Part shown: positions 6,546 through 57,732 of the stretch, one piece after another | Layout of the letters: each line of letters starts with the position of its first letter | How positions within the stretch are numbered: position 1 is the first letter of the stretch | Position numbers and translations under genes: made by a program | Source: Primulina eburnea | Lineage: Eukaryota; Streptophyta; Magnoliopsida; Lamiales; Gesneriaceae | NCBI RefSeq assembly: GCF_022965805.1 | Contig: NC_133104.1 | Coordinates: 21,971,308-22,035,307, forward strand | Length of the DNA: 64,000 nt | Direction: 5' to 3' | The notes under the pieces: model-generated | Databases searched by the model: none | Told to the model about the DNA's origin: nothing | Seen by the model: only the letters and a program-made list of their open reading frames with translations

Positions 6546-6566
6546 ATGGGTAGTTGGCTCTAGTGC

Positions 6567-6576
6567 AAGTGGAGAT
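6567..6576 (+). other. Cop1 polypurine tract
   Basis: AAGTGGAGAT lies directly before the 3' LTR start. Cop2 has AAGTGGGAGAT at the same place. It would prime plus-strand DNA synthesis. Confidence 0.7.
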
Positions 6577-8779
6577 TGTTAGAGTAGGTGCCCGTCGAGC
6601 CAAGTGTTGGCCGAGTGTTCACAATGAAACTCTATGTATAGCAATCTTTATTTTAATAATATTTGAAATTATTATTTTGGCAAATCTTTATCTGTATACC
6701 CATGCTAGCTGCATAGATAAAGCCCTTTGAGTATACAATAGTAGAAAGAATATGAGATGCTCATATGATGAGTATCATGAAACTCATATTTGTAATACTG
6801 TATATTCTAAACGGTTCCTAGTCGATTCAGCCGCCACTAAGAAGGATATAGGCCGCTAGAGTTCGAGACTAGTATCTGCGATGTGAGTACCATGTTTCAT
6901 TGGTAGGGGACATTGTGATGTCCGAACATGCAGATAGGGCACCTTGTAGAGTGCACTGAACAACCCTCCATAAAAGGGACTTTCCAAGTGGTTCTCACTT
7001 ATCGAGTGGAAATGTCCTAGTTTATGGTTGTACAGAATAGTCCTTATGACCCGGGACAACATTGAGACTCTATGTGCTAGAATTACACTTTGACTTGTTT
7101 ACCGACTCTTATGGGGTCATCAGGTGGCAAGGTTGGGTGTTCTGTCGAAACACATAGGAGTCGATGCATTGTAGTCGGGGATTCACCGCTTACCTTCGGG
7201 TATGGATATCCTATGTGTTATCATGTGTATGTAGATCGAAATCTCTGGCCAGAGTATGGTTGTAATTATGAAAGGTGTTTCATAGATTACACCATCGATG
7301 CAACTACGACATGACACATAGTATCGATTCATTGACAACTCTCGATAAACCAATGGTTGTCGAATCGATCGGGATATATGAGTTGAAGGGACCGTACTGT
7401 GCGCTAACCATAATTGAATGGTTCTTGCAGGCACTATCATGTGATACCTAGGGAATCACGTAAGCGATGCTGCTAGGCGTTTAACGTGATTGGTTGGGTA
7501 CTATCAGACTTGAGTTCTGACGTTCTTATTATCAAGGTGTTGATAAGTAAGAATGGAGCAATTAGGGTATGCTCGAATAAGGACATGTTTAGTCCGAATC
7601 ACATGGAGATGTGAACCCACGGCTAGTTGTATCAATGAACCATTGAGGGCCACACAAGTACTAGCTTTGTAAATCCCGATGAGAAGTAAAATAGTTCAAT
7701 GTGTTGAACGGCTTATAAAGGAGTTTATAAGCGTAAGTAAAATTAGAAGTTTGACTTCTATAAGGAGAAAATGGTTCAATGTGTTGAACGGCTTATAAAT
7801 GTGTTTATAAGTGTAAAGAAAAATAGAAGTATGACTTCTATGAGAGAAATATAAATTTTAATTTATGGAAGTGTTCCTAAATTAAAATTTGGCCAAGTGA
7901 CTAATATTTTTGAAAATTGTGATTTCATAAACATTATTATGGACTAAATTAAATTAATTCAAGTGTTGAATTAATTAAACACTAGTGGGCCTAGTAGAGC
8001 CAAATAATTAAATTAATTCAAGTGTTGGATTAATTAAATAATATTGAGTCTAGTAGAGCTCAATTAAAATAATTATTTAACTAGTGGGACTTGAGTAAAT
8101 TCAAGTAATATTTAATTTGTCTCAAATATGTTTGAGATAATTAAATTTAGTCTATGGTTTTTTATTTGATAGAAAACTATATTATATGAATGCATGGGAG
8201 GTGAAGAGTTGGGGAATACTTTTGAATAAAATATTGGTTGGCATGCAACTTTTGTATCAACTTTTGCAACCCCAAGACTTGATTCTCCTCCCTCATTCTA
8301 CACTCCACATGGCCGAGATTCTCCTCCCTCATTCTACACTCCACATGGCCGAAACTCTCCTCCCCATTCTCTCCCAAGATTTTTCTCCATTTTGTTCTTC
8401 AAATTGTTGAAGAATAAAATACTTCTCTTTGATAATCTTCTTGTTTTTCTAGTGCAAACAAGAAGGGATTTACTAGTTAGTGTGGGCTTGATTTTGAAGG
8501 AAAGAACTCAAAGAAAAGGAGGAGCTTGTAGATTTCTTCATGCCATTCAAGAGCTAAGGTGTTTACACCTTAGTTGGAGCCATAAAATCAATCCTTGTGA
8601 TTGATAGGTAATTTTCTCAACACCCTATGCTTGAAAGTTGAGATTTTTGTATATGTTTGTACAACTAGTACATGGTGTTCAATTTTGAAAAATATTATAC
8701 CAAAAATTTCGGTTTTCATGTTTGAAAACAATTTTGTGCTTCCGTTGCGATTTTGAACACCGTATATCGATCCCTTTCA
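6577..8779 (+). repeat. Cop1 3' LTR (complete, 2203 bp)
   Basis: It starts TGTTAGAG and ends CCCTTTCA, the same ends as the Cop2 LTRs. Position 7144 onward equals the start of the window. GypA coding sequence begins at 8780. No gene is supported inside. Confidence 0.93.
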
Positions 8780-10440: not shown

Positions 10441-11962
10441 AGCGTTATTGTTTCACTTTTTCAGGAATTTGACAATTTATTTCCGGAGGAGCTACCTCAA
10501 GGCTTACCACCATTGAGGAGGATTGAACACCAAATTGATTTGGTGCCCGGGAGTGCCTTGCCGAACCGTCCAGTTTATAGGAGCAATGCGGAGGAGACTA
10601 AGGAGCTGCAACGACAGGTAAGTGAGCTATTAGATAAAGGGTTTGTGCATGAGTCCATGTCACCTTGTGCGGTGCCCGTTTTACTAGTCCCTAAGAAAGA
10701 TGGATCATGGCGTATGTGTGTAGATTGTAGGGCAATCAATAACATAACCATTAAGTATAGGCATCCCATACCTAGACTAGATGATATGTTAGATGAATTG
10801 CATGGGTCTTGCATTTTTAGCAAAATTGACTTCAAAAGTGGGTATCACCAAATTAGGATGAGAGAAGGTGATGAGTGGAAAACTGCTTTTAAAACTAAAT
10901 ATGGGTTATATGAGTGGATGGTTATGCCTTTTGGCTTAACTAATGCACCTAGCACCTTTATTAGGTTAATGAATCATGTTTTGCGTGCACACATAGGAAA
11001 ATTTGTTGTGGTCTATTTTGATGATATCCTAGTGTATAGCAAAAACTTAGATGAGCATGTTAACCACTTGAAACTTGTGCTAATCACATTAAGGGCTGAA
11101 AAAATTTGTATGCTAACTTGAAGAAATGTGATTTTTGTACTAGCAAACTTGTCTTCCTTGGTTTTGTGGTAAGTTCACAGGGTATACAAGTTGATGAAGA
11201 CAAGGTAAGTGCTATTCGAGATTGGCCAACGCCTACTACTGTTGGTCAAGTTCGAAGTTTTCATGGTCTTGCAAGCTTCTATAGGAGGTTTGTCAAAGAT
11301 TTTAGCACATTGGCGGCACCGATGACGGCGGAGATCAAGAAGAACGTTCCATTCCATTGGAGCGAGGAGCAAGAGAAGTCCTTTAATCTCATTAAGCAAA
11401 AATTGATTAATGCTCCTTTACTTGTTTTACCTGATTTTGCTAATACGTTTGAAATTGAATGTGATGCTTCAGGTGTAGGTATTGGTGGCGTGTTGATGCA
11501 AGGAGGAAGGCCGGTAGCGTACTTTAGTGAGAAGCTCAATGGGGTAGCGCTGAACTATCCCACGTATGACAAGGAGTTCTATGCACTTGTGAGGACTCTT
11601 GAGACGTGACAGCACTACTTGAGGCCTAAAGAGTTTGTGATTCATACGGATCATGAGTCTCTAAAGCACCTCAAGGGGCAACAAAAGCTGAACAAACGGC
11701 ATGCTAAGTGGGTGGCGTTCATAGAGACATTCCCCGACATGATCAAATACAAGCAAGGTAATGAAAACGTAGTGGCCGACGCAATATCACGGAGGTATGT
11801 GCTTTTCTCTACTTTGGAATCTAAAATCTTGGGGTTTGAGCTTGTTAAAGAATTGTATGTGCTAGATGATGACTTTAAAGAAGTGTTTGAAACTTGTATG
11901 CATGGTCCACATGATAAATTCTACTTGCATAAGGGTTTCTTGTTTAGAGAGGATAGATTGTG
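10441..11962 (+). pseudogene. GypA reverse transcriptase and RNase H, broken, cut by GypB
   Basis: RT copies the element RNA into DNA and RNase H removes the RNA. RT blocks seen in order are the [12 protein letters not shown] start, [42 protein letters not shown] and the catalytic [12 protein letters not shown] one-base indel near 11105 shifts the frame. RNase H shows [14 protein letters not shown] and [13 protein letters not shown] to TGA change at 11607..11609 breaks the conserved ETWQHYL motif; the frame then continues ([18 protein letters not shown]) to the GypB junction at 11962. The rest of pol continues at 20702. Confidence 0.9.
11958..11962. other. GypB target-site duplication, left copy (TTGTG)
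   Basis: TTGTG here and at 20702..20706 flank GypB exactly. They lie in the GypA pol frame and mark one integrase-mediated insertion. Confidence 0.95.
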
Positions 11963-12254
11963 TGTGGGGACCCGGGCTCTAATTCTTTTTCTTGGGATTA
12001 AATGGATTGTTATTAAAAACGTGGGTCAAATTTTTGCTTTTTACAATAAATCAAATGTAACTAAACAAACATAATTCTTAGTTTAACTTACAATATAAAC
12101 ATGAAGTACAAGTCTTGTTCTTACAACTAGTGTTCAATACCATCTATAAACAAACGGTAGTACAAGTCTAACAAAAGAACCACTAGTCCTCTGCTGCGCC
12201 CGAGATCACCACGCTATCACGATCCTCTCTGTCTCGACCCAGATCCTGCCCCAC

Positions 12255-12288
12255 CTGTTGTTATGCACACATACAGACATAACAACAG
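12255..12288 (-). other. U5 hairpin CTGTTGTTATG in the GypB 3' LTR
   Basis: CTGTTGTTATG and CATAACAACAG form an 11-bp stem around a 12-nt loop. It is the copy of the hairpin at 19068..19101 and has counterparts in GypD and GypG. Confidence 0.7.
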
Positions 12289-13479
12289 CCGTAAAACCGG
12301 TGAGAACAAATCCCAGTATAAACATGTATACATGCATTAAACAATCTAAAACATGAAACATGCTAATATGACTGTCATTCATATAAAATCATGCAATGCA
12401 AGTCTAATGATGTCTAGATGCGACTCGACTAGAACTCTAGGGATCCCGTTGTGAATAAGACGTCACTGGCTGTCACCTACCCTACCAATCGAGGTGCTGT
12501 ATGTCTTATTCCTAGACTTCGGCCTGATCTGTATCCGCGTCTACAATAGGGGCGGTGATCTTCCCCTAAGCTGAGATATCGCCGAACATCTAGTAGTCTG
12601 CCTGATCTCCAGACTGCCCTATCTTAATGCATGAATACAAAATCTGTAAACAAGCATAATGCAATGCTACACGATCTGTAAACAAAGCATAGCAAGATCT
12701 GAATACAAGTTCTATAAACAAATCTATAATAATCATAATCATATCAAGGTATGAACAACAAAAATAGTATGTGATTTTGGTTGGGAAACTCAAATGTGAT
12801 CTCATTTGAGTCGTGATTCCCCAAACAAAACATGTACTATACCTTTCGTCGTAGAATCGCTTTCACGGTCGTCAATACGAATCTGAAATGGAAATGTGGA
12901 TACGCACTCTATCAATTTCTAATCTAAATCAACACATAACCAAGTCACTACGTGATCTCAATACAATTTGACGGCATAACGACGTAATTCTCGATACCGG
13001 TCAATCCAAATCTCAACAAATATCAACACTATCTCATTTTCAGTCATAATCTAATACAATATCCATCCAAAACACAATAATTCTGCCCCAATAATTCATA
13101 AACCATACTGAAATTCATAGGAAATGTATATGATATCATTTCTTTGATCCGTTTACAAATATATCATGCTCAATACGTCAAGAACACAATATAACTATCA
13201 TATTCTCATTTCCCCAATATGTGAATTTCGAAACTTACTGAAATCGAATAAAACTTACATCACTTTGTAGATAATGAAGAGAGAAGCTCAAAACCGAAGT
13301 CGGATTTGAATTTGGATGATTAAATCTTATGAAATCACCATTTAAAAGTGGAAGGAAGTTTGGAGCTTTTCCTCTGCAACTCTCGATTATTTCTGATGGA
13401 ATGAAGGAAAATTCGTGCCAAGATATATATACTTTGCATGCCCCAATACACATGGCAAATCTTATGAACTACACGTCTC

Positions 13480-13737
13480 GCGCATATGCGCGGCATTACT
13501 CGCGCATGTGCGCGAGACCTACTGTCTCGGCAGATTTAGCACTCGCGCATATGCGCCACTAAACTCGCGCATATGCGCCAATGGTTCTGGACGCTCCGCG
13601 CATATGCGCCACTACTCTCGCGCATATGCGCCAAGGCTGCTGTACATGTCGCGCTTATGCGCCACTCTTTCCGCGCATATGCGCCACTGCTACTGGAATT
13701 CTCATGCATATGCACGCATTCCTTCGCGCATATGCGC
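13480..13737 (-). repeat. Array of ten GCGCATATGCGC palindromes, GypB 3' LTR
   Basis: Ten copies (seven exact, three variants such as GCGCATGTGCGC and GCGCTTATGCGC) of a 12-bp palindrome are spaced about 17-45 nt apart. In element direction the array is in U3, upstream of the TATA box. The matching array is at 20293..20550. Confidence 0.92.
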
Positions 13738-13888
13738 CATAGCTTCGGCCTTACTCATTCTTTTGACTATCTTTCACATCTTTATTATACATTTCCCTTT
13801 CTTCTCTAGTCCAATGAAATACATCTAAAATCATCTTAATTATCAACAAATCCCTCTGATTATGATAACTAAATCTTCGAGCCTTACA

Positions 13889-13901
13889 TTTCTCCCCCTC
13901 T
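13889..13901 (-). other. GypB polypurine tract
   Basis: In element direction AGAGGGGGAGAAA lies directly before the 3' LTR. GypD and GypG have almost the same tract. Confidence 0.88.
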
Positions 13902-18770: not shown

Positions 18771-19067
18771 CCTGTTGTGGGGACCCGGGCTCTAATTCTT
18801 TTTCTTGGGATTAAATGGATTGTTATTAAAAACGTGGGTCAAATTTTTGCTTTTTACAATAAATCAAATGTAACTAAACAAACATAATTCTTAGTTTAAC
18901 TTACAATATAAACATGAAGTACAAGTCTTGTTCTTACAACTAGTGTTCAATACCATCTATAAACAAACGGTAGTACAAGTCTAACAAAAGAACCACTAGT
19001 CCTCTGCTGCGCCCGAGATCACCACGCTATCACGATCCTCTCTGTCTCGACCCAGATCCTGCCCCAC

Positions 19068-19101
19068 CTGTTGTTATGCACACATACAGACATAACAACA
19101 G
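19068..19101 (-). other. U5 hairpin, GypB 5' LTR
   Basis: CTGTTGTTATG and CATAACAACAG form a perfect 11-bp stem around a 12-nt loop. GypD and GypG have the same hairpin with C:G or G:U in place of the T:A pair. A second, smaller stem (CCGG-AAAA-CCGG) lies alongside. It is in the transcribed leader near the primer site. Confidence 0.75.
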
Positions 19102-20234
19102 CCGGAAAACCGGTGAGAACAAATCCCAGTATAAATATGTATACTTGCATTAAACAATCTAAAACATGAAACATGCTAATATGACTGTCATTCATATAAA
19201 ATCATGCAATGCAAGTCTAATCATGTCTAGATGCGACTCGACTAGAACTCTAGGGATCCCGTTGTGAATAAGACGTCACTGGCTGTCACCTACCCTACCA
19301 ATCGAGGTGCTGTATGTCTTATTCCTAGACTTCGGCCTGATCTGTATCCGCGTCTACAATAGGGGCGGTGATCTTCCCCTAAGCTGAGATATCGCCGAAC
19401 ATCTAGTAGTCTGCCTGATCTCCAGACTGCCCTATCTTAATGCATGAATACAAAATCTGTAAACAAGCATAATGCAATGCTACACGATCTGTAAACAAAG
19501 CATAGCAAGATCTGAATACAAGTTCTATAAACAAATCTATAATAATCATAATCATATCAAGGTATGAACAATAAAACAAGTATGTGATTTTGGTTGGGAA
19601 ACTCAAATGTGATCTCATTTGAGTCGTGATTCCCCAAACAAAACATGTACTATACCTTTCGTCGTAGAATCGCTTTCACGGTCGTCAATACGAATCTGAA
19701 ATGGAAATGTGGATACGCACTCTATCAATTTCTAATCTAAATCAACACATAACCAAGTCACTACGTGATCTCAATACAATTTGACGGCATAACGACGTAA
19801 TTCTCGATACCGGTCAATCCAAATCTCAACAAATATCAACACTATCTCATTTTCAGTCATAATCTAATACAATATCCATCCAAAACACAATAATTCTGCC
19901 CCAATAATTCATAAACCATACTGAAATTCATAGGAAATGTATATGATATCATTTCTTTGATTCGTTTACAAATATATCATGCTCAATACGTCAAGAACAC
20001 AATATAACTATCATATTCTCATTTCCCCAATATGTGAATTTCGAAACTTACTGAAATCGAATAAAACTTACATCACTTTGTAGATAATGAAGAGAGAAGC
20101 TCAAAACCGAAGTCGGATTTGAATTTGGATGATTAAATCTTATGAAATCACCATTTAAAAGTGGAAGGAAGTTTGGAGCTTTTCCTCTGCAACTCTCGAT
20201 TATTTCTGATGGAATGAAGGAAAATTCGTGCCAA

Positions 20235-20247
20235 GATATATATACTT
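20235..20247 (-). promoter_or_regulatory. TATA box of the GypB 5' LTR
   Basis: In element direction AAGTATATATATC, about 45 nt downstream of the last palindrome. The equivalent box is present in the other LTR. Confidence 0.6.
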
Positions 20248-20292
20248 TGCATGCCTCAATACACATGGCAAATCTTATGAACTACACGTCTC

Positions 20293-20550
20293 GCGCATAT
20301 GCGCGGCATTACTCGCGCATGTGCGCGAGACCTACTGTCTCGGCAGATATAGCACTGGCGCATATGCGCCAGTAAACTCGCGCATATGCGCCAATGGTTC
20401 TGGATGCTCCGCGCATATGCGCCACTACTCTCGCGCATATGCGCCAATGCTGCTGTACATGTCGCGCATATGCGCCACTCTTTCCGCGCATATGCGCCAC
20501 TGCTACTGGAATTCTCATGCATATGCACGCATTTCTTCGCGCATATGCGC
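20293..20550 (-). repeat. Array of ten GCGCATATGCGC palindromes, GypB 5' LTR
   Basis: Same array as in the 3' LTR. Some units here are exact where the other LTR has a variant (for example GCGCATATGCGC against GCGCTTATGCGC). It occupies U3, ending about 45 nt before the TATA box. Confidence 0.92.
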
Positions 20551-20701
20551 CATAGCTTCGGCCTTACTCATTCTTTTGACTATCTTTCACATCTTTATTA
20601 TACATTTCCCTTTCTTCTCTAGTCCAATGAAATACATCTACAATCATCTTAATTATCAACAAATCCCTCTGATTATGATAACTAAATCTTCGAGCCTTAC
20701 A

Positions 20702-20706
20702 TTGTG
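20702..20706. other. GypB target-site duplication, right copy (TTGTG)
   Basis: Pairs with 11958..11962. GypA pol continues from here in frame. Confidence 0.95.
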
Positions 20707-28410: not shown

Positions 28411-29262
28411 TCATTTCAAAGTAGGGCAAATCACCAAAGCTGAAAGTCGAGCTACCGTACCTTTCTCGACCAAGGCGATCTCATTACTTTGCAAGTCCAA
28501 CAATAAAGGTTTTTGAATCATAGAACTCAACACAACTCGTGATTTCCGACTCAGTGCATCTGCAACTACATTCGCTTTCCCAGGGTGGTAACTGATAGTG
28601 CAATCATAATCCTTAACAAGTTCCAAACATCTCCTCTGACGCATGTTCAATTCCTTCTGAGTAAACAGATATTTAAGGCTTTTATGATCTGAGAAAATCT
28701 CACACTTTACTCCATACAAATAATGCCGCCATATCTTCAAAGCGAATACCACAGCTGCCAACTCAAGATCGTGAGTCAGATAATTCTTTTCATAATCCTT
28801 TAGCTGACGGAAAGCATAAGCAATTACCTTACCACGCTGCATCAATACAGCACCAAGTCCTTTCTTAGAAGCATCAGTGAACACTACAAAGTCTTCAACT
28901 CCTTCAGGAAGTGACAACACTGGAGCCGATGTCAATTTATCCTTCAACTCTTGAAAACTTTGTTGACACTCATTTGTCCATTCAAATTTAACTGTCTTTC
29001 TTGTCAATGTGGTCAACGGCAGGGCTATCTTTGAGAAATCAGCGATGAAACGACGATAGTAACCTGCTAAACCAAGAAAACTTCGTATCTCAGCCACTGT
29101 CATAGGAATAGGCCACTTCTTCACTGATTCTATCTTTGTTGGATCCACGGTAATTCCATCTTTAGAAACAATATGGCCTAGAAAAGTCACTTGGTCCAAC
29201 CAAAACTCGCACTTCTTTAACATAGCATATAACTGATTATCCCTCAATTGCTGCAGCACAGC
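28411..29262 (-). pseudogene. GypC RT C-terminus and RNase H, cut by GypE
   Basis: It starts inside RT ([28 protein letters not shown]) at the GypE insertion and continues through [14 protein letters not shown] into RNase [25 protein letters not shown] and [10 protein letters not shown]. Two conserved residues differ (YAFRQL for YASRQL, NYLTHD for YPTHD). It ends at a stop at 28411, where the frame shifts into integrase. The other half of RT is at 32917..33600; across GypE the frame is unchanged, since GypE plus one TSD is 3654 nt. Confidence 0.9.
29258..29262. other. GypE target-site duplication, left copy (ACAGC)
   Basis: ACAGC here and at 32912..32916. Removing GypE and one copy gives an uninterrupted RT frame reading HLRAVLQQ. 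Confidence 0.95.
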
Positions 29263-30691
29263 TGTAGTGACCCGTTCCAGAATCACCTACTAATCAAGAA
29301 CTAAGCATGCGATTAACTTAATTAAAAACAATCAGAAATAAAGGCGGAAAACTGTCACCAAAAGATAGTTATACAACCCAATCGAAAATCCAGGACAACT
29401 CAACTAAAATGAAATATACGGTACAACCATATCGAATCAAAAAGATACCGAAGAACTAAACCAACCAGCTACTCAACGTCCTCCTCCTCCTCCTCCTGAG
29501 CTGTCCAACCTGAGGCCTGCCCCGTGGGAATGGGGTGTCCAAGATAAACAAAACCGAGGACATGAGCGATAAGAACGCCCAGTACAAAAGCATGAGTATA
29601 CAAACCTATATGAAATGCACATGCTATGATATGATACCAGGGTAGTCAAGAAACAGGAGTAACAAAGGATCTCAATATGCTCAGTCTAGAGGCGCCAAGT
29701 GGATAGTGCCGCGCGGTACTCCTCTGGGTCACTGCATCCACTACAAGAACAGACGTGGACCTAAAATGTCCCGGATCACCGAAGCCCTCCGAACCCGTCG
29801 GCCACTGTGTACTCTCGGTGTCCATGCGTCCACAACACAAGACAGGGCTGAGCGGCCCCACAAGATATAGCTTATCTCGAAAGAGATACAGCTCAACAGT
29901 AAAGGCTATCTCGAAGGAGATACGGCTCAACATGAAATGCAACATGCATCATACAGCGTGACATAATAGCATGCATCATATGACATATATCAATACACCA
30001 CATAATCATGCAACACATATAAGAATGTATACTCGACCAGGATATCTCGGATAGTACTTTCGTACCTCTATCACTGCAATCCTAATCCACTGGAAAACCA
30101 GACAAACAGGTCTATTCCAAGCCTATTCATCAAGTGAAAACCATCACTAAAACTTATCTACCAGACTTAACTAGATAATCCTGAAATAATAATGATACAA
30201 TTCCAAACCTTCGTCCGTCGCTAGCCCGCTGATGCCGCTAGCTCCCAACTAGAGCACAGCTCCGCTACAAAGCCAGTAGCTCCCTGCTAGTGCCTGAACC
30301 TCGGGAAAGACTAGAAACCTCTCAGAAACGACTAAAACGCTCTGGAACGCTCTGAAATGGCGAGTAAGAAATGAAGCCTCGCGCCTCTATTTATAGCCAA
30401 TGTTCGGACGATCCGATCCACTTCGGAAGCTCCGATCCGGTACACTTCGGACGATCCGAACCCACTTCGGACGATCCGAACCTTGCATGTGTTCTACGTG
30501 TCCAGCCACCTGTCTCGGACGATCCGAACCCTTGCTCGGACGATCCGAATTCTGCATGTCTGCCACGGGTCCAGCCACCTGGCTCGGACGATCCGACATC
30601 TGGCTCGGACGATCCGAACCATGATCGGACGATCCGAACCCGGTTCGGTCCTTCCGATCCCACCGAAAAATAATTAATCCAATAATTAACT
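29263..30691 (-). repeat. GypE left arm: inverted LTR lacking its U3 tip
   Basis: Reverse complement of 31483..32911, almost identical. Homology stops at 30691 and pol sequence starts at 30692 with no purine tract between. Includes the palindrome array at 30403..30658. No gene is supported. Confidence 0.93.
30403..30658 (-). repeat. Array of ten TTCGGA-NNN-TCCGAA inverted repeats, GypE left arm
   Basis: Ten units of the form TTCGGACGATCCGAA (6-bp arms, 3-nt spacer), most exact. Two larger blocks repeat a GTGGCTGGAC linker between units. Mirror of the array at 31517..31772. Confidence 0.92.
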
Positions 30692-31296
30692 GAATGGTGT
30701 ATGGGCGACGTTGTCGTACTCCATTATTCTGGGACGAAGTTGGGGAACGACATGTTGAGGGACCGGAGTTAGTCCAGCAGGCTATTGATAAGGTTGCAGT
30801 AATCAAGAAACGGATTAAGATCGCTCAGGATCGACAGGCTAGTTAGGCGAACACCAAGCGGCGACCTCTTTATTTTCAGCCAGGTGAGAAAGTGTTTCTC
30901 CGAGTTTCGCCTTTTCGCAGGATTTTGAGATTTGGTCTCAAGGGTAAGCTGTCTCCGAGATTTATTGGTCCATTTGAAATATTGGAAAGCGTGGGAGATT
31001 TGGCTTACAGACTTGCATTGCCGCCATACCTATCAAGTATTCATGATGTATTCCACGTATCTTTGTTGAGACGATACGTAGCAGATGAGTCTCACATCTT
31101 GCATCCCTCTGAAGTTCAACTAAATTCGGATTTGTCTTACGTGGAACGACCAGTGCGGATTCTCGATCGCAAAGACAAGGTATTGCGGAATAAGATCATT
31201 CCTCTTGTCTTAGTTCAGTGGCAGCGCAGAGGCACTGAAGAAGCCACTTGGGAGCTAGAGAGTCGTATGCGTTCGGAGCATCCAGAGCTCTTTTGA
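30692..31296 (+). pseudogene. GypE pol fragment: integrase C-terminus with chromodomain-like tail
   Basis: Only the end of integrase is present. It starts abruptly at the junction with the inverted LTR (GRRCRTPLFWDEVG), runs through RIKIAQDRQAS, a TAG stop at 30844..30846 (relatives have Tyr), then FLRVSPFRRILRFG, FHVSLLRRYVADE and VQWQRRGTEEATWELE, the chromodomain-like tail, and ends at a natural stop after HPELF. Gag, protease, RT, RNase H and the integrase core are absent. It cannot support its own movement. Confidence 0.92.
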
Positions 31297-31447
31297 GTTG
31301 TACTGTAGTTGTACTATGGATGTGTGTGTGTGTTTTCCGCTGTAATCCAAAGATCAGTTGTGTTCAACAACAATTGAGATATAATAACAATGTTGTTACT
31401 CCTTTTTGTTCATCCTATAAACCTGATTTCGAGGACGAAATCTTTTT
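31297..31447 (+). other. GypE 3' untranslated segment with pre-polypurine hairpin
   Basis: About 150 nt between pol stop and purine tract. At 31425..31442 it carries GATTTCG-AGGA-CGAAATC, a 7-bp stem with AGGA loop, 5 nt before the purine tract. No other feature seen. Confidence 0.78.
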
Positions 31448-31460
31448 AAGGGGGGGAGAA
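31448..31460 (+). other. GypE polypurine tract
   Basis: AAGGGGGGGAGAA directly before the forward LTR, showing that this LTR is a normal 3' LTR. Confidence 0.9.
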
Positions 31461-31516
31461 TGTAGTATCCCGATTCCTAATTTGAGTTAATTATTGGATA
31501 ATTATTTTTCGGTGGG

Positions 31517-31772
31517 ATCGGAAGGACCGAACCGGGTTCGGATCGTCCGATCATGGTTCGGATCGTCCGAGCCAGATGTCGGATCGTCCGAGCCAGGTGG
31601 CTGGACCCGTGGCAGACATGCAGAATTCGGATCGTCCGAGCAAGGGTTCGGATCGTCCGAGACAGGTGGCTGGACACGTAGAACGCATGCAAGGTTCGGA
31701 TCGTCCGAAGTGGGTTCGGATCGTCCGAAGTGTACCGGATCGGAGCTTCCGAAGTGGATCGGATCGTCCGAA
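31517..31772 (+). repeat. Array of ten TTCGGA-NNN-TCCGAA inverted repeats, GypE right arm
   Basis: Units such as TTCGGATCGTCCGAA, ending about 7 nt before the TATA box. The short peptides translated from it on either strand are by-products of the repeat. Confidence 0.92.
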
Positions 31773-31778
31773 CATTGG

Positions 31779-31790
31779 CTATAAATAGAG
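31779..31790 (+). promoter_or_regulatory. TATA box of the GypE LTR
   Basis: CTATAAATAGAG, a near-perfect plant TATA box just downstream of the palindrome array. The mirrored copy lies near 30384..30395 in the left arm and points the other way. Confidence 0.75.
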
Positions 31791-32916
31791 GCGCGAGGCT
31801 TCATTTCTTACTCGCCATTTCAGAGCGTTCCAGAGCGTTTTAGTCGTTTCTGAGAGGTTTCTAGTCTTTCCCGAGGTTCAGGCACTAGCAGGGAGCTACT
31901 GGCTTTGTAGCGGAGCTGTGCTCTAGTTGGGAGCTAGCGGCATCAGCGGGCTAGCGACGGACGAAGGTTTGGAATTGTATCATTATTATTTCAGGATTAT
32001 CTAGTTAAGTCTGGTAGATAAGTTTTAGTGATGGTTTTCACTTGATGAATAGGCTTGGAATAGACCTGTTTGTCTGGTTTTCCAGTGGATTAGGATTGCA
32101 GTGATAGAGGTACGAAAGTACTATCCGAGATATCCCGGTCGAGTATACATTCTTATATGTGTTGCATGATTATGTGGTGTATTGATATATGTCATATGAT
32201 GCATGCTATTATGTCACGCTGTATGATGCATGTTGCATTTCATGTTGAGCCGTATCTCCTTCGAGATAGCCTTTACTGTTGAGCTGTATCTCTTTCGAGA
32301 TAAGCTATATCTTGTGGGGCCGCTCAGCCCTGTCTTGTGTTGTGGACGCATGGACACCGAGAGTACACAGTGGCCGACGGGTCCGGAGGGCTTCGGTGAT
32401 CCGGGACATTTTAGGTCCACGTCTGTTCTTGTAGTGGATGCAGTGACCCAGAGGAGTACCGCGCGGCACTATCCACTTGGCGCCTCTAGACTGAGCATAT
32501 TGAGATCCTTTGTTACTCCTGTTTCTTGACTACCCTGGTATCATATCATAGCATGTGCATTTCATATAGGTTTGTATACTCATGCTTTTGTACTGGGCGT
32601 TCTTATCGCTCATGTCCTCGGTTTTGTTTATCTTGGACACCCCATTCCCACGGGGCAGGCCTCAGGTTGGACAGCTCAGGAGGAGGAGGAGGAGGACGTT
32701 GAGTAGCTGGTTGGTTTAGTTCTTCGGTATCTTTTTGATTCGATATGGTTGTACCGTATATTCATTTTAGTTGAGTTGTCCTGGATTTTCGATTGGGTTG
32801 TATAACTATCTTTTGGTGACAGTTTTCCGCCTTTATTTCTGATTGTTTTTAATTAAGTTAATCGCATGCTTAGTTCTTGATTAGTAGGTGATTCTGGAAC
32901 GGGTCACTACAACAGC

Positions 32917-33600
32917 TCTCAAATGTTCTCGATGAAGTTCACGAGTCTTCGAATAAACCAAAATATCATCAATAAATACAATGACGAAACTGTCCAAATA
33001 AGACTTGAAGACTCGATTCATAAGATCCATAAAAACTGACGGTGCATTCGTTAACCCGAAAGACATAACCAAAAATTCATAATGACCATACCTAGTTCGA
33101 AAAGCAGTCTTAGGTATGTCGTCTTCTTTCACTTTCAATTGGTGATAACCCGATCGCAAATCAATCTTGGAAAATACTGTTGCCCCTTGCAATTGGTCAA
33201 AAAGATCATCAATTCGGGGCAAAGGATACTTGTTCTTAATTGTAACTTTGTTGATCTCTCGGTAGTCAATACACAAACGTAGTGACCAATCTTTCTTTTT
33301 CACAAACAACACTGGTGCCCCCCATGGTGAAGAACTCGGTCTAATAAAGCCTTTATCTAACAATTCTTGCAATTGGTTCTTTAATTCTTTCATTTCAGTC
33401 GGTGCTATTCGATAAGGGGCTTTAGAAATAGGAGCAGTACCAGGTACAACATCAATGACAAACTCGACTTCTCTATCGGGTGGCAATCTCGGCACATCAT
33501 CGGCAAAGACATCCGAATACTCTCGAACAATTTCAATACCATTAACATCCACATCATATTTCTCACTCACATCCATTACTGACGTCGGAAATCCTGACAC
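32917..33600 (-). pseudogene. GypC reverse transcriptase, N-terminal half
   Basis: From the protease-RT linker ([18 protein letters not shown]) through [56 protein letters not shown] and the catalytic [10 protein letters not shown] to the GypE junction. Small departures from relatives are visible (KKDW for KKDG, MSFG for MPFG). A frameshift near 33590 separates it from protease. The second half of RT is at 28411..29262. Confidence 0.9.
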
Positions 33601-35057
33601 CCCTTAACCAACATCTTATTCACCTTCAAGCAAGAAATAAAAGAAGTGCCAAGCGAAGTACCTGAACCCTTGAAGACATTACTGTCACCTTCTTCTGTCG
33701 GAAATCGCACCGTCTTTTCAACACAATCTATCGCTGCACGATACGATGATAGCCAATCCATACCCAAAATCACATCAAACTCAATCATAGGAATCACAAT
33801 AAGATCAGCAAACAAAATTCTCTAATTCACTTGAATAGGACAAGCTCTAATCACACTTGTTGGGCAAATCACATCTCCCGAGGGAAGCATAATAGTAAAC
33901 TGGAGAGGTTCAAATACAGGTGCAATACCCAACGATCTCATGAAAATTTCAGACATAAAAGAATGTGTAGCTCCAGTATCAATTAAAGTAAGGGCTACAT
34001 TGCCTGAAATCTGAATAGTACCTGATATAACCGACGTATCAGGATTAACACCCTCCTTAGTCAAAGAGAAGATGCGCCCTTGGACTCGTCCTCGGCCTGA
34101 AGATTGGGTGCAGTTGATGGCAATGTGACCTACACCTCCACATCTGTAACATTTGTTGCTCCCTACGAGACATTCACCCTTGTGGGGCTTGTTGCATTTG
34201 GAAAATAAAGGTCTATTCGTCTCAGACTGAACTGCAGGAGCTTTACCTCGATGTTCTTCTTTTCCTTTGCCTTTGTATCCCCCTTTAAAACTTTGATTCG
34301 AAGCTTGATTCTTTTGATTGAAGTTTTGCCTTCTCAATTGTCTTTCCTTCTCAATCTCTTTCTCATCCTGTTCCGCTAAAAGAGCTTTCTCCACGATCTC
34401 CTTATACGTTGCGGCCTTAGACATTCTGACATCCTTCCTGATCTCGGCTCTCAAGCCTCTCATGAAGTGTTCCCCTCGATCTTTGTCATTCGAAGCAATG
34501 AAAGGAACAAACAAGCAACCTTCTTCAAACTTCAAAATAAAATCATTCACATTCAAGTTGCCCTGGTTTAGTTCCAAGAACTCCTTCACTTTCCGAGTCT
34601 TGACATCCGTGGAGAAATATTTGTCATAAAATAGCTCCTTGAACTCATTCCATTTAAGGGTTTGAACATTGACAGTTACCTTCGTAGCCTCCCACCAAAT
34701 GCGCGCAGTCTTGGTTAGAAGAAACACTGCACAACTAACTCGATCATTATCTTCAAAGTGTAGATAGTCAAAGATTGCTTCAATAGCTTTAACCCATTCC
34801 ATAGCTGCAAGAGGATCCGTACCTCCCACGAACTCAGGTGGATTCATTCTTTTAAATCTGTCATAAGCTCCCTCTGAACTGGGCTCCTGCCTCACAAGGC
34901 CTCTACCTCTCCCTTGAGCTGGGTTCTGCAATCTCAATAACTGTTGGATCTGTTCTCCATGAACTTTGGCTTGCTCCTTGAGCAACTTACTAAACTCACC
35001 AACAACTCGAGATGAGGAACTATCTTCTTCCTCTACAACTTTCCTCTTAGGTGGCAT
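33576..35057 (-). pseudogene. GypC gag and protease, one internal stop
   Basis: Gag starts MPPKRKVVEEED at 35057. The core has PPEFVGGTDPLAAMEWV and IWWEATKV, the DUF/Retrotrans_gag type of Tekay elements. A lysine-rich region precedes the zinc knuckle CYRCGGVGHIAINC. The protease active site is LTLIDTGATHSF. A TAG at 33822..33824 interrupts the protease; the same frame continues (LFADLIVIPM, ILGMDWL) to about 33590, where it shifts into RT. The gag part alone is open over roughly 400 codons. Confidence 0.92.
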
Positions 35058-47661: not shown

Positions 47662-47666
47662 ATAAT
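47662..47666. other. Cop2 target-site duplication, left copy (ATAAT)
   Basis: ATAAT here and at 57698..57702 flank Cop2 exactly. Confidence 0.93.
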
Positions 47667-49813
47667 TGAAAGGGGATCAGTTACGGTGGCCGGAAACGCA
47701 ACGGAAGCACAAAAATTTTCGATTTTAGCATATAAATTTCGGCCACCATGATTTTGTGTAGGAAATACAATAAAACACCAAAATGACATTCATAGTGTGT
47801 CTAGAAATAGTTACCTATCAACCTCTTAAGGTTGATGATGGCTCCAACCAAGTTGTGAACAACTTGGCTCTTGAATGGAATGAAGATCTACAAGCTTCCT
47901 TGGACTCCTTTCTTTCCTTCAAAATTAGGCCCACCACTAGCAAACTAGAACCCCTCTTATTTTGCACTAGAAAAATAAAAGGATTTTTCAAAGAGAAGTA
48001 TTTTTATTCCTCAACACTTGAAGAGAAAAATTGAGAGAAAACTTTGAGAGAATAATAATTCAATATTTCGGCCATTGTGAGCTAGAATGGGGGAAGGGAG
48101 ACTTGTCTTGGACTTGCAAAAAGTAGAGACAAAAGTAGCATACCAAGCCTTGATATTTGAAAAAGTTGTCTCCAACACTTCACCTCCCATGCATGCATAT
48201 TATATGGTTTTTTATCAAAATAAAACCATGGACTAAATTTAATTATCTCAAACATATTTGAGACTAATTAAACATTACTTGAATTTACCCAAGTCCCACT
48301 AGTTAAATAATTAATTTAAATTGAGCTCTACAAGACTCAATATAATTTAATTAATTCAACACTTGAATTAATATAATTATTTGGACTCTACTAGGTCCAC
48401 TAGTGTTTAATTAATTCAACACTTGAATTAATATAATTTAGTCCATAATAATGCTTATGAAAATCACAATTTTCAAATACACTATTCAATTGGCCAACTT
48501 TTAATTTAGGAACACTTCCATAAATTAAAATTTACATTTCTCTCATAGAAGTCATACTTCTATTTTTCTTTACACTTATAAACTCATTTATAAGTTGTTC
48601 AACACAGTGAACTAGTTTCTCCTTTATAGAAGTCATACTTCTAATTTTCCTTACGCTTATAAACTCCTTTATAAGCCGTTCAACACATTGAACTATTTTT
48701 ACTTCTCAACGGGATCTAGAAAGCCAACACTTGTGTGGCCCTCAATGGTTCATTGATACAACTAGCCGTGGGTTCACATCTCCATGTGATTCGGACTAAA
48801 CATGTCCTTATATGAACATACCCCAATTGCTCCATTCTTACTTATCAACTCCTTGATAACAAGAACGTCAGAACTCAAGTCTGATAGTACCCAACCAATC
48901 ATGTTAAACGCCTAGCAGCATCGCTTACATGATTCCCTAGGTATCAAATGATAGTGCCTGCAAGAACCATTCAATTATGGTTAGCGTACAGTACGTTCCC
49001 TTCAACTCATATATCCCGACCGATTCGACAACCATTGGTTTATCGAGAGTTGTCAATGAATCGATACTATGTGTCATTCCGTAGTTGCATCGATGGTGTA
49101 ATCTATGAAACTCCTTTCATAATTACCACCATACTCTGATCAGAGATTTCACACTACATATACATGAAAACACATAGGATATCCATACCCGAAGGTAAGC
49201 GGTGAATCCCCGACTACAATGCATCGACTCCTATATGTTTCGACAGAACACCCAACCTTGCCACCTGATGACCCCTTGAGAGTCGGTAAACAAGTCAAAG
49301 TGCAATGCTAGCACATAGAGTCTCAATGTTGTCCCGGGTCATAAGGACTAATGGTGTACAACCATAAACTAGGACGTTTCCACTCGATAAGTGAGAACCA
49401 CTTGGAAAGTCCTTTAACGGAGGGTTGTTCAGTGCACTCTTCCAGGAGCACCTATCTGCATGCTTGGACATCACAATGTCCCCTACCAATGAAACATGGT
49501 ACTCACATCGCAGATACTAGTCTCTAACTCGAGCGGCCTATATCCTTCTTAGCGGCGGCTGAATCGACTAGGAACTATTTAGAATATACAGTATTCCAAA
49601 TATGAGTTTCATGATACTCATCATATGAGCATCTCATATTCTTTCTACTATTTGTATATTCAAGGACTTTATCTATGCAACTAGCATGGGCATACAGATA
49701 AAGATGTGCCAAAATAATAATTTCAAATATAATTAAAATAAAGATCGTTTATACATAGAGTTTCATTGTGAACACTCGGCCAACACTTGGCTCGACGGGC
49801 ACCTACTCTAACA
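47667..49813 (-). repeat. Cop2 3' LTR
   Basis: In element direction TGTTAGAG (49813) to CCCTTTCA (47667). Carries the AT-rich inverted-repeat chain. No gene is supported. Confidence 0.95.
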
Positions 49814-49824
49814 ATCTCCCACTT
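49814..49824 (-). other. Cop2 polypurine tract
   Basis: In element direction AAGTGGGAGAT directly before the 3' LTR. Confidence 0.85.
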
Positions 49825-49827
49825 GCA

Positions 49828-50394
49828 CTAGAGCCAACTACCCATATGCTTCAAACCCATTGATTCGCGATGCTTCTCGAATAATGGTCCAGGTAAAGGC
49901 TTAGTTAGTGGATCAGCAACATTATCTGCGGAGTCGACTTTGTCAATCATGACATCTCCTCTTTCCACGATCTCTCTGAGGATGTGGTACTTTCTCAATA
50001 CGTGTTTGGACTTCTGATGAGACCTCGGCTCCTTTGCTTGAGCAATGGCTCCCGTGTTGTAACAAATCACCGGGACAGGAGCAACTCCATTAGGAATGAC
50101 GCCCAACTCTTGGACGAAATTCCTTATCCAAACTGCCTCTTTTGCTGCAGCTGATGCAGCAATGTATTCTGCCTCAGTGGTGGAATCCGCTGTATTGTCT
50201 TGCTTGGAACTCTTCCAAGAGACAGCAGCACCATTGAGCATGAATATGAATCTAGAGGTTGACTTTGAGTCATAAATATCGCTTTGGAAGCTAGAGTCGG
50301 TATAGCCTTCCAATTTTAGTTCTCCACCCCCATAGACCAAGAACAATTTATTGGTCCTCCTCAAGTACTTGAGGATGTCTTTCACAGCTTTTCA
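49828..50394 (-). pseudogene. Cop2 RNase H, after a nonsense codon
   Basis: RNase H removes the RNA strand during reverse transcription. The domain has VYGGGELKLEGYTDSSFQSD (catalytic Asp), STTEAEYIAASAAAKEAVW (catalytic Glu) and SKHVLRKYHILRE, and the copia C-terminus VADPLTKPLPGP. It is in the same frame as RT but cut off by a TGA at 50392..50394, within the conserved HWKAVKDIL motif where related elements have Trp (TGG). The rest of the domain is intact. Confidence 0.9.
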
Positions 50395-52380
50395 ATGTGG
50401 AAGACCGGGGTTCGATTGATATCTACTCACTACACTTAGTGCAAAAGCCACGTCAGGACGTGTGGATATCATTCCATACATGATGCTACCAATTGCCGAA
50501 GCATACGGAATGTGTGTCATCGCCGCTATCTCCGCATCAGTCTTGGGAGACATAGACTTGGATAGGGTCACGCCATGACACATTGGTAGATGTCCTCTCT
50601 TGGACTCATCCATCGAGAATCGCTTCAGGATGGTATCAATGTACGTGGACTGGGTGAGACCAAGCAATATCTTTGATCTATCTCTGTAGATTTGTATTCC
50701 CAATACAAAAGATGCTTCACCCAAGTCTTGCATCGAGAACTTGCTTGCTAACCATATCTTGGTTGATTGCAACATTCCTACATCATTTCCAATGAGTAGA
50801 ATGTCATCAACATACGGCACCAAGAATGTCACAGCACTCCCACTGACCTTCTTATACACACAGGGTTCCTCAGGATTCTTAGTAAAATCAAACTCTTTGA
50901 TTGTACTATCGAATCTAAGGTTCCAACTCCTAGATGCCTGTTTTAGACCATAAATAGATCTCTGAAGTTTGCATACCATATGCTCACTTCCGACAGATGT
51001 AAACCCTTCGGGTTGAGACATGTAAATTTCTTCCTTAATATCCCCATTAAGAAATGTTGTCTTAACATCCATCTGCCATATCTCATAGTCATACCATGCA
51101 GCTATGGCTAGCAAAATCCTTATGGACTTGAACATTGCGACTGGAGAAAAGGTTTCTTCAAAGTCAACTCCTTGTCTTTGAGTATATCCTTTTGCTACCA
51201 ATCGCGCTTTGAAGGTCAATACCTTCCCATCCGCCCCAAGTTTCCTCTTGTAAATCCATTTACACCCTATGGGAACAGTTCCCTCAGGTGGATCCACAAG
51301 ATTCCACATTTGGTTCGAATGCATGGAATTCATCTCAGATTCCATTGCTTCAAGCCACTTGGATGAATCGGCATCAGATAAGGCTTCCTTGAAGGTCCTT
51401 GGATCACATCCAAGGTTAGGCTCATAACGGCCCTCTTGAAGAAGCAGACCATACCTCATAGGTGGTCTCGAGACTCTCTCGGATCTTCTAGGAGCTTGTA
51501 TCTCCTCCCTTGGCTCTTCGGGTGTGGGTTCTACAATTGTGGGTGTCTCTCGAACTTCTTCGATTTCTATCATCTCTCCTTTTCTATTCAATAGAAATTC
51601 CCTTTCCAAAAAGGTTGCATTCCTAGAAACAAATACCTTTGTTTCTTGGGGATGATAGAAGTAATATCCAACAGAATTCTTTGGATATCCCACAAAGTAA
51701 CATAAAATGGATCGACTATCCAATTTATCTCCCACTACCTGCTTCACATAAGTAGGGCACCGCCATATTCTAAAATATGAATATTTGGGTGGCTTACCCA
51801 TCCATATCTCATATGGTGTCTTATCAACTGCTTTTGTATGGACATTGTTCAACAACAGTGCCGCTGTCTCAAGCGCATATCCCCAAAAGGATGGCGGCAA
51901 CTCCGTGAACCCCATCATAGACCGAACCATGTCCATCAAAGTCCGGTTACGACGCTCCGAAACACCATTCAACTGTGGTGTTGCGGGCGGAGTCCACTGC
52001 GAGAGAATCCCATTCTCCCTTAGATACTCTTGGAACTCGGCACTCAAGTACTCACCACCCCGATCCGATCGAAGTGTCTTGATGCTTCGTCCCAACTGAT
52101 TCTCTACTTCACTTCTGAATTCTTTGAACCTTTCAAAAGCTTCAGATTTGTATTTCATCAAATACACATACCCATACCTCGAGAAATCATCGGTAAAGGT
52201 GATGAAGTAGGCATGTCCATGCTTAGTGGTGATGCTAAGCGGACCGCACACATCGGTATGGATCAAATCCAATAACCCTTTGGCTCGCTCCACATGGCCC
52301 TTAAATGGAATTTTGGTCATCTTTCCTTTTAGACAGGATTCACAAGTCGTGAGAGCATTAATATCAGACATAACATGCCA
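50395..52380 (-). CDS. Cop2 integrase and reverse transcriptase (pol)
   Basis: Integrase: zinc cysteines in CESCLKGK, first Asp in IHTDVCGPL, second in LRSDRGGEYLS, Glu in NGVSERRNRT, so the D,D,E triad is complete. After an acidic/proline linker (EEPREEIQAPRRSER) comes RT: VDPPEGTVPIGCKWIYKRK, ARLVAKGYTQRQGVDFEETF, MDVKTTFLNGD and the catalytic YVDDILLIGND. The frame is open over nearly 680 codons and ends at the premature TGA before RNase H. Upstream it is shifted by one base relative to gag-protease, with the change between 52350 and 52385. Without those lesions this would be one copia polyprotein. Confidence 0.93.
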
Positions 52381-55547: not shown

Positions 55548-55549
55548 CT

Positions 55550-57697
55550 TGAAAGGGGATCGGTTACGGTGGCCGGAAACGCAACGGAAGCACAAAAATT
55601 TTCGATTTTAGCATATAAATTTCGGCCACCATGATTTTGTGTAGGAAATACAATAAAACACCAAAATGACATTCATAGTGTGTTTAGAAATAGTTACCTA
55701 TCAACCTCTTAAGGTTGATGATGGCTCCAACCAAGTTGTGAACAACTTGGCTCTTGAATGGAATGAAGATCTACAAGCTTCCTTGGACTCCTTTCTTTCC
55801 TTCAAAATTAGGCCCACCACTAGCAAACTAGAACCCCTCTTATTTTGCACTAGAAAAATAAAAGGATTTTTCAAAGAGAAGTATTTTTCTTCCTCAACAC
55901 TTGAAGAGAAAAATTGAGAGAAAACTTTGAGAGAATAATAATTCAATATTTCGGCCATTGTGAGCTAGAATGGGGGAAGGGAGACTGATCTTGGACTTGC
56001 AAAAAGTAGAGACAAAAGTAGCATGCCAAGCCTTGATATTTGAAAAAGTTGTCTCCAACCCTTCACCTCCCATGCATGCATATTATATGGTTTTTTATCA
56101 AAATAAAAACCATGGACTAAATTTAATTATCTCAAACATATTTGAGACTAATTAAACATTACTTGAATTTACCCAAGTCCCACTAGTTAAATAATTAATT
56201 TAAATTGAGCTCTACAAGACTCAATATAATTTAACTAATTCAACACTTGAATTAATATAATTATTTGGACTCTACTAGGTCCACTAGTGTTTAATTAATT
56301 CAACACTTGAATTAATTTAATTTAGTCCATAATAATGTTTATGAAAATCACAATTTTCAAATACATTATTCAATTGGCCAACTTTTAATTTAGGAACACT
56401 TCCATAAATTAAAATTTACATTTCTATCATAGAAGTCATACTTCTATTTTTCTTTACAATTATAAACTCATTTATAAGTTGTTCAACACAGTGAACTAGT
56501 TTCTCCTTTATAGAAGTCATACTTCTAATTTTCCTTACGCTTATAAACTCCTTTATAAGCCGTTCAACACATTGAACTATTTTTACTTCTCAACGTGATC
56601 TAGAAAACCAGCACTTGTGTGGCCCTCAATGGTTCATTGATACAACTAGCCGTGGGTTCACATTTCCATGTGATTCGGACTAAACATGTCCTTATATGAG
56701 CATACCCCAATTGCTCCATTCTTACTTATCAACTCCTTGATAACAAGAACGTCAGAACTCAAGTCTGATAGTACCCAACCAATCATGTTAAACGCCTAGC
56801 AGCATCGCTTACATGATTCCCTAGGTATCAAATGATAGTGCCTGCAAGAACCATTCAATTATGGTTAGCGTACAGTACGGTCCCTTCAACTCATATATCC
56901 CGACCGATTCGACAACCATTGGTTTATCGAGAGTTGTCAATGAATCGATACTATGTGTCATGTCGTAGTTGCATCGATGGTGTAATCTACGAAACTCCTT
57001 TCATAATTACCACCATACTCTGATCAGAGATTTCACACTACATATACATGAAAACACATAGGATATCCATACCCGAAGGTAAGCGGTGAATCCCCGACTA
57101 CAATGCATCGACTCCTATATGTTTCGACAGAACACCCAACCTTTGCACCTGATGACCCCTTGAGAGTCGGTAAACAAGTCAAAGTGCAATGCTAGCACAT
57201 AGAGTCTCAATATTGTCCCGGGTCATAAGGACTAATGGTGTACAACCATAAACTAGGACGTTTCCACTCGATAAGTGAGAACCACTTGGAAAGTCCTTTA
57301 ATGGAGGGTTGTTCAGTGCACTCTTCCAGGAGCACCTATCTGCATGCTTGGACATCACAATGTCCCCTACCAATGAAACATGGTACTCACATCACAGATA
57401 CTAGTCTCTAACTCGAGCGGCCTATATCCTTCTTAGCGGCGGCTGAATCGACTAGGAACTGTATAGAATATACAGTATTCCAAATATGAGTTTCATGATA
57501 CTCATCATATGAGCATCTCATATTCTTTCTACTATTTGTATATTCAAGGACTTTATCTATGCAACTAGCATGGGTATACAGATAAAGATGTGCCAAAATA
57601 ATAATTTCAAATATAATTAAAATAAAGATCGTTTATACATAGAGTTTCATTGTGAACACTCGGCCAACACTTGGCTCGACGGGCACCTACTCTAACA
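55550..57697 (-). repeat. Cop2 5' LTR
   Basis: 2148 bp, same ends as the 3' LTR, adjacent to the primer site. TATA-like stretch at about 56080..56089 (TGCATATTATATGG on the plus strand). No gene is supported. Confidence 0.95.
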
Positions 57698-57732
57698 ATA
57701 ATCACGACCTTAACAGCACTCAGCACCCATCG
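57698..57732 (-). other. Cop2 TSD copy (ATAAT) and GypH right remnant
   Basis: 57698..57702 is the second ATAAT. The remaining 30 nt belong to the sequence into which Cop2 and GypG inserted. Confidence 0.7.

Follow-up and report, generated by a model that had tools for sequence, protein, structure and literature searches.

The window analysed here, a 64,000-nt stretch of the Primulina eburnea genome (C4:21971308-22035307 of an assembly of 812 Mb in 1224 contigs), contains a 3649-bp insertion (29263-32911) that splits the reverse-transcriptase (RT) gene of another element and has U5 at its outer border on the left and right alike. Its origin in one integration, of a DNA terminating in U5 on either side, is well supported. 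The same genome carries at least seven further U5-out insertions enclosed by a single 5-bp duplication (TSD), and the window insertion is no one-off. The recurrence of such U5/U5 insertions suggests that unfinished reverse-transcription products can join tail to tail and still integrate. The features of the window insertion and of the gene that it interrupts are as follows.

28414..29262, minus strand: interrupted host RT gene, downstream part, with the rest of RT and RNase H (ORF, profile match)
29258..29262, no strand: left TSD copy, ACAGC (sequence, script comparison)
29263..30691, minus strand: inverted LTR arm of 1429 nt, reverse-complementary to LTR positions 25-1451 and lacking 24 nt of the U3 tip; its U5 tip faces outward (BLAST, global alignment, repeat search)
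30692..30697, no strand: 6-nt filler at the arm/pol junction (comparison with intact copies)
30698..31296, plus strand: 3' portion of pol containing a single in-frame stop, a Tf2-type SH3 domain and a chromodomain-like stretch (profile matches, intact copies)
31448..31460, plus strand: purine tract preceding the right LTR (sequence; the same in intact copies L005 and L007)
31461..32911, plus strand: complete LTR of 1451 bp with its U5 tip outward (sequence, BLAST)
32912..32916, no strand: right TSD copy, ACAGC (sequence, script comparison)
32914..33603, minus strand: interrupted host RT gene, upstream part, RVT_1 1-171 of 205 (ORF, profile match)

Read from left to right, the insertion thus comprises an inverted LTR arm, a short filler, a segment of pol that extends from the integrase region up to the purine tract, and finally a complete LTR. 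A script comparison of the sequence confirmed the coordinates given in a preliminary description of this DNA, with ACAGC abutting both borders, i.e. at 29258-29262 and 32912-32916. The interruption of an RT gene, also described there, was borne out: the gene lies on the minus strand and, when its flanks were scored unjoined, the right flank gave a match to RVT_1 (1-171 of 205), and the RNase H domains were located in the left one. The two flanking ORFs, compared unjoined, read as fitting each other. The left 1429 nt had been described as the reverse complement of the right LTR, and BLAST aligned them to LTR 25-1451 in that orientation at 99.65% identity; the U5 ends claimed for both outer borders were seen in the repeat search and in BLAST. 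Three details needed adjustment: the arms differ by three substitutions and two one-base gaps in a global alignment rather than by about four differences, the left arm stops 24 nt and not about 23 nt short of the U3 tip, and its join to pol, which was correctly recognized, contains the filler at 30692-30697 that had gone unmentioned, with alignment to the pol of intact copies starting at 30698. The repeat search of the window returned inverted arms of 1264 and 151 nt ending exactly at the 5-bp TSD, and these arm lengths together with the exact ending exclude a chance origin. The 1264-nt arm was printed as '100% complementary', a rounded value, and all three substitutions fall inside the arms. 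At alignment column 696, both window arms share a base that differs in four LTRs of two other elements (both LTRs of L011, and L012 and L006, which are the LTR pair of one element). Set against the usual plant substitution rates, three substitutions over about 1427 aligned positions suggest an age well under a million years.

The window element is a Ty3-type LTR retrotransposon, putatively chromovirus-like. In what remains of its pol, the Tf2-type SH3 domain that follows integrase was recognized by PF24626 (87.8 bits; cut-off, 30), and a chromodomain-like stretch at the end of pol scored 22 bits with PF00385, under the Pfam cut-off of 25.1. Intact relatives have ordinary U3/U5 outer ends, e.g. 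L002/L005 with the TSD GGGTC, and the direct LTR pair that characterizes them, exposing U3 on one side and U5 on the other, is lacking in the window insertion. Since both of its outer ends are U5 while those of its intact relatives are normal, it is an aberrant copy and no regular Ty3-type member.

A 37-nt pattern across the window junction matched the genome only once with up to three mismatches, in the window itself. The junction is thus unique in the 812-Mb genome, which rules out a propagating lineage for this insertion. The preliminary description had set a lineage against one-off errors; the outcome is recurrent independent errors, as the seven other insertions differ from the window and from each other in joins and TSDs. 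These were found from U5 tips. The 28-nt U5 tip common to the window and related subfamilies has 7227 matches (3629 + 3598) with up to two mismatches, and the U5 sample was drawn from nine patterns, for which 100 of 7227, 74 of 74, 4 of 4, 100 of 167, 61 of 61, 42 of 95, 1 of 1, 59 of 59, and 100 of 107 matches were listed; the remaining 53 matches of the sixth pattern already lie within the listing of 100 of 167, whose pattern is its end. Merging reduced 541 rows to 528 distinct U5 ends and 319 insertion clusters, each U5-out unit being counted once. Among the matches listed, neighbours within 10 kb formed 10 outward pairs versus 1 inward pair (two-sided sign test, 0.012), and, as a control, no U3-out pair was present within 10 kb among 100 listed of 618 U3 tips. 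An identical 5-mer was found at both outer borders in eight of the nine U5-out units compared, i.e. ACAGC (window), AGACT (L010), ATAGG (L021), AGTGT (L025), TGGTT (L026), AAATG (L031), AGAAT (L032), and CTTGC (L035). The ninth, L022 (C1:22985274-22992235), has GAAAT and ATAAC in the border positions compared, hence no TSD, and was left out of the eight; it consists of a minus-sense full element running into the 5' LTR (to 1115), followed by a plus-sense LTR to the U5 tip. The tenth outward pair (C1:6817261-6833010) was rejected as two normal elements in opposite orientation with the TSDs GAATC and GAAAC, and a wider pair (C1:12805258 and 12818601, 13 kb apart) has unlike flanks and probably represents two insertions. 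In the sole U5-in pair (C2:11073395 and 11078594), a normal PBS adjoins one U5 end. The rate of U5/U5 insertions with a single TSD is about 2% (8 of 319 clusters, or 7 of 318 without the window), a value that is only indicative because the patterns derived from copies that had been encountered beforehand and the window was part of the sample from the outset.

The layouts of the eight units are listed below, where 'minus' denotes the reverse-complement LTR read inward from the U5 tip and positions are numbered along the LTR of the closest reference copy.

Window insertion: minus over the LTR and the purine tract and on into pol; plus from 25
L010, 5330 bp: minus across a complete LTR, the purine tract, some of pol, a fragment of the PBS, and another piece of LTR ending at about 99; plus for the final 212 nt
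L021, 425 bp: minus from 1451 to 1229, then plus from 1253 to 1451; arms of 200 nt, perfect
L025, 1571 bp: minus from 1434 to 1272, then plus from 32 to 1434
L026, 1641 bp: minus from 1434 to 1184, then plus from 40 to 1434
L031, 1783 bp: minus from 1321 to 17, then plus from 841 to 1321
L032, 1368 bp: minus from 1321 to 276, then plus from 77 to 269, then plus from 1179 to 1321
L035, 3000 bp: two LTRs (1430 + 1562 bp), U3 tip to U3 tip via 8 nt

In all eight, the layout can be read as a pair of DNAs, each begun at U5, that were joined at the ends away from U5. The joins contain 0-7 nt of shared sequence or a short filler (partly judged by eye): besides the 6-nt filler of the window, L010 shares 1 nt, L025 and L026 share none, L021 has a 1-nt filler, L031 shares 3 nt, L032 about 7 nt, and L035 6 nt beside its filler (by eye from L026 onward). 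For L021 and L026, by-eye values were used, the script overlap values being inflated by variants near the join. A 7-nt stretch common to pol just past the window break and to U3 near its start is suggestive but was given no weight, the junction containing no intact copy of it. In L035, the filler and the first U3 bases resemble, by eye, the PBS/U5 border in the minus sense; separately, the last 132 nt of U5 are tandemly duplicated in its right arm (C2:24609861-24611422) and in that arm only. Of the 16 joined ends (L035 counted twice), 8 lie less than 100 nt from the U3 tip, for which the chance is about 5e-6 if ends are assumed to be uniform and independent over the LTR. This cluster would fit DNA that was double-stranded from the purine tract onward, or stalling before the tract. 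Six other ends lie about 160-480 nt from U5 and resemble early stops of minus-strand synthesis, as expected of partial products.

Minus-strand DNA starts with U5 at its 5' end, the position of the tRNA primer, and two outward U5 tips therefore point to two minus-strand starts. The natural reading is either that two minus strands were joined 3' to 3' or that one strand was folded back. We tentatively prefer, at a little below even probability, the joining of incomplete minus-strand cDNAs at their 3' ends before integration. For the window, one strand would have extended as far as the integrase region of pol, and its partner would have stopped 24 nt before the U3 tip. The joining would most likely involve two minus strands within one particle, where RT may hold both 3' ends together with little or no complementarity so that each strand is copied onto the other, and such mutual copying would directly yield a linear duplex with two U5 ends. 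Integrase could then insert this duplex like normal cDNA, giving the 5-bp duplication; concerted integration in vitro works with two like ends. The product has an outward LTR promoter on either side but lacks a PBS and is therefore predicted to be incapable of copying itself, and the unique window junction is consistent with such a dead-end product. Against the joining of two strands stand L025 and L026, the joins of which have no complementarity at all, and L022, which has this kind of layout without a TSD. The broader proposition, that tail-to-tail joining of minus strands by the element's own RT in one particle is a regular side path that turns aborted cDNAs into integrable two-U5 DNAs and seeds inverted LTR repeats with outward promoters, is offered as a possibility that we consider somewhat less likely than not.

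The preliminary description proposed one integration of a reverse-transcription intermediate with two U5 ends, which stands, and derived this intermediate from an intramolecular fold-back, which is not established. In a fold-back, a stopped minus strand would snap onto its own LTR and copy it to U5, and the hairpin would later be converted to a linear duplex with two U5 ends. We regard this as somewhat unlikely. Every structure can be read as a stop point plus a fold-back point, the smallest loops being 8 nt (L035) and about 25 nt (L021) long, the shared sequence at the switch in L031 (3 nt) and L032 (about 7 nt), both by eye, fits as well, and snap-back synthesis is reported, in the text available, for a bacterial group II intron-like RT (PMC12337344). 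The likeness of the arms within each insertion also points this way: the same haplotype in both arms is automatic with one template, whereas two molecules would have to come from the same source copy. No unit with unlike inherited variants between its arms was found, the arm ends compared being alike within each case. In some cases like arms are weak evidence, because insertions unrelated to one another likewise show no difference across the 143 nt compared (window, L021, and L022; L025 and L026; L031 and L032). They are telling for L010, the 112-nt haplotype of which has four genome matches, two of them its own arms; L021, L025, and L026 each carry a variant further in that is common to their two arms. 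The four differences over 143 nt in L035 result from its 132-nt duplication, and the terminal 130 nt are identical. The arms of L031 show five differences in 481 nt; in four, the left arm agrees with the scorable reference LTRs and in the fifth the right arm does, a pattern as expected for later mutations. Against the fold-back, a hairpin has only one U5 end, and its opening or copying into a duplex is unexplained and has left no trace in the sequence. The loop of L021 contains no purine tract to prime the conversion, and L032, in one arm of which 270-1178 are missing, requires a second change if the strand templated itself. Two-strand joining is the simpler of the two, since the fold-back needs the extra hairpin-copying step.

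Alternatively, integrase may hold two incomplete cDNAs by their U5 ends and insert both, with host end joining linking the far ends afterwards. The nearly blunt joins of several units, the short fillers in the window, L021, and L035, and the loss of 16-39 nt at the U3 tip in the window, L025, L026, and L031 are all compatible with this. Host joining is nevertheless unlikely in our judgement, because integrase would have to pair the ends of two molecules and a broken chromosome would have to be repaired every time, and because the 6-nt TGTAGT overlap and PBS-like filler of L035 look like copying. As a general explanation, a pair of neighbouring insertions, an inversion at a later time, or an assembly error is highly improbable: the tenth pair is a real example of neighbouring insertions, and the unlike flanks of the 13-kb pair and the missing TSD of L022 point the same way, but the U5 tip is flush with an identical 5-mer on both sides in eight units, two neighbouring insertions are ruled out wherever one TSD encloses the pair, an inversion would require breaks exactly at the TSD/LTR border each time, and an assembly error is an unlikely source of the window structure given seven like insertions at unrelated sites, each with its own TSD.

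If two-strand joining is correct, a cDNA left unfinished but with one good end would sometimes escape loss, since two of them can be combined and integrated, and the joined ends would constitute a genomic record of the sites at which minus-strand synthesis stopped in vivo. The insertions would also be evidence from nature for the acceptance of two U5 ends by a plant Ty3-type integrase. They would supply inverted LTR repeats and promoters facing outward, and these might in turn feed into silencing. The number of such insertions in any assembled genome can be obtained by pairing U5 tips that face outward and checking for 5-bp TSDs.

DIRS-type retroelements use a tyrosine recombinase and are not known to generate a TSD. 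They share inverted terminal repeats with the window insertion, which differs in having a 5-bp TSD and an integrase-type pol. In the open-licence literature searched, no description of U5/U5 or inverted-LTR insertions of the present kind was found. The closest published class found, going by the portion of that paper at hand, comprises the complex LTR-retrotransposon insertions explained by template switching (Sabot and Schulman 2007, PMC1950507). As in the window, with its ACAGC, an abnormal RT product is there inserted in one event with one 5-bp TSD; in those insertions, three LTRs and two cores all point the same way and the outer ends are normal, whereas the window LTRs are inverted and both ends are U5. 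An internal third LTR and two direct cores are absent from the window insertion, which has one partial core between its inverted arms. RT clamp activity and snap-back synthesis, in which RT joins or self-primes DNA 3' ends with little complementarity (PMC10805873, PMC12337344), are, in the sections at hand, test-tube or bacterial-repair activities of other RTs. In Ty3, plus-strand strong-stop DNA builds up in particles as a dead-end product, showing that partial products of LTR length exist; two-U5 integration, seen in the window insertion, is not described in the available text of that review (PMC5371799).

Several other arrangements were observed in the same genome. Three loci, L027 (C3:44386603), L028 (C8:18137402), and L030 (C12:25614827), consist of three same-orientation LTRs at even intervals of about 1.7-1.8 kb, each array being enclosed by a single 5-bp TSD (GTGCC, ATAAC, and GAAAA, respectively; flanks by eye), and resemble the complex insertions of Sabot and Schulman. 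A longer array of this type at C10:18294902-18303553 has six same-orientation U5 tips at regular intervals of about 1712 bp. L023 (C1:43248099-43250985) contains two complete same-orientation LTRs with 5 bp between them, and at position 2864 of L019 and position 1840 of L018 a short U5 tip lies on unrelated or protease-coding sequence with no full LTR. The window itself also contains an inverted repeat pair (4609-8316 and 48068-51821, 91% identity) and two direct repeat pairs (47666-49815 and 55549-57699, 98.6% identity; 11959-13890 and 18773-20703, 99% identity).
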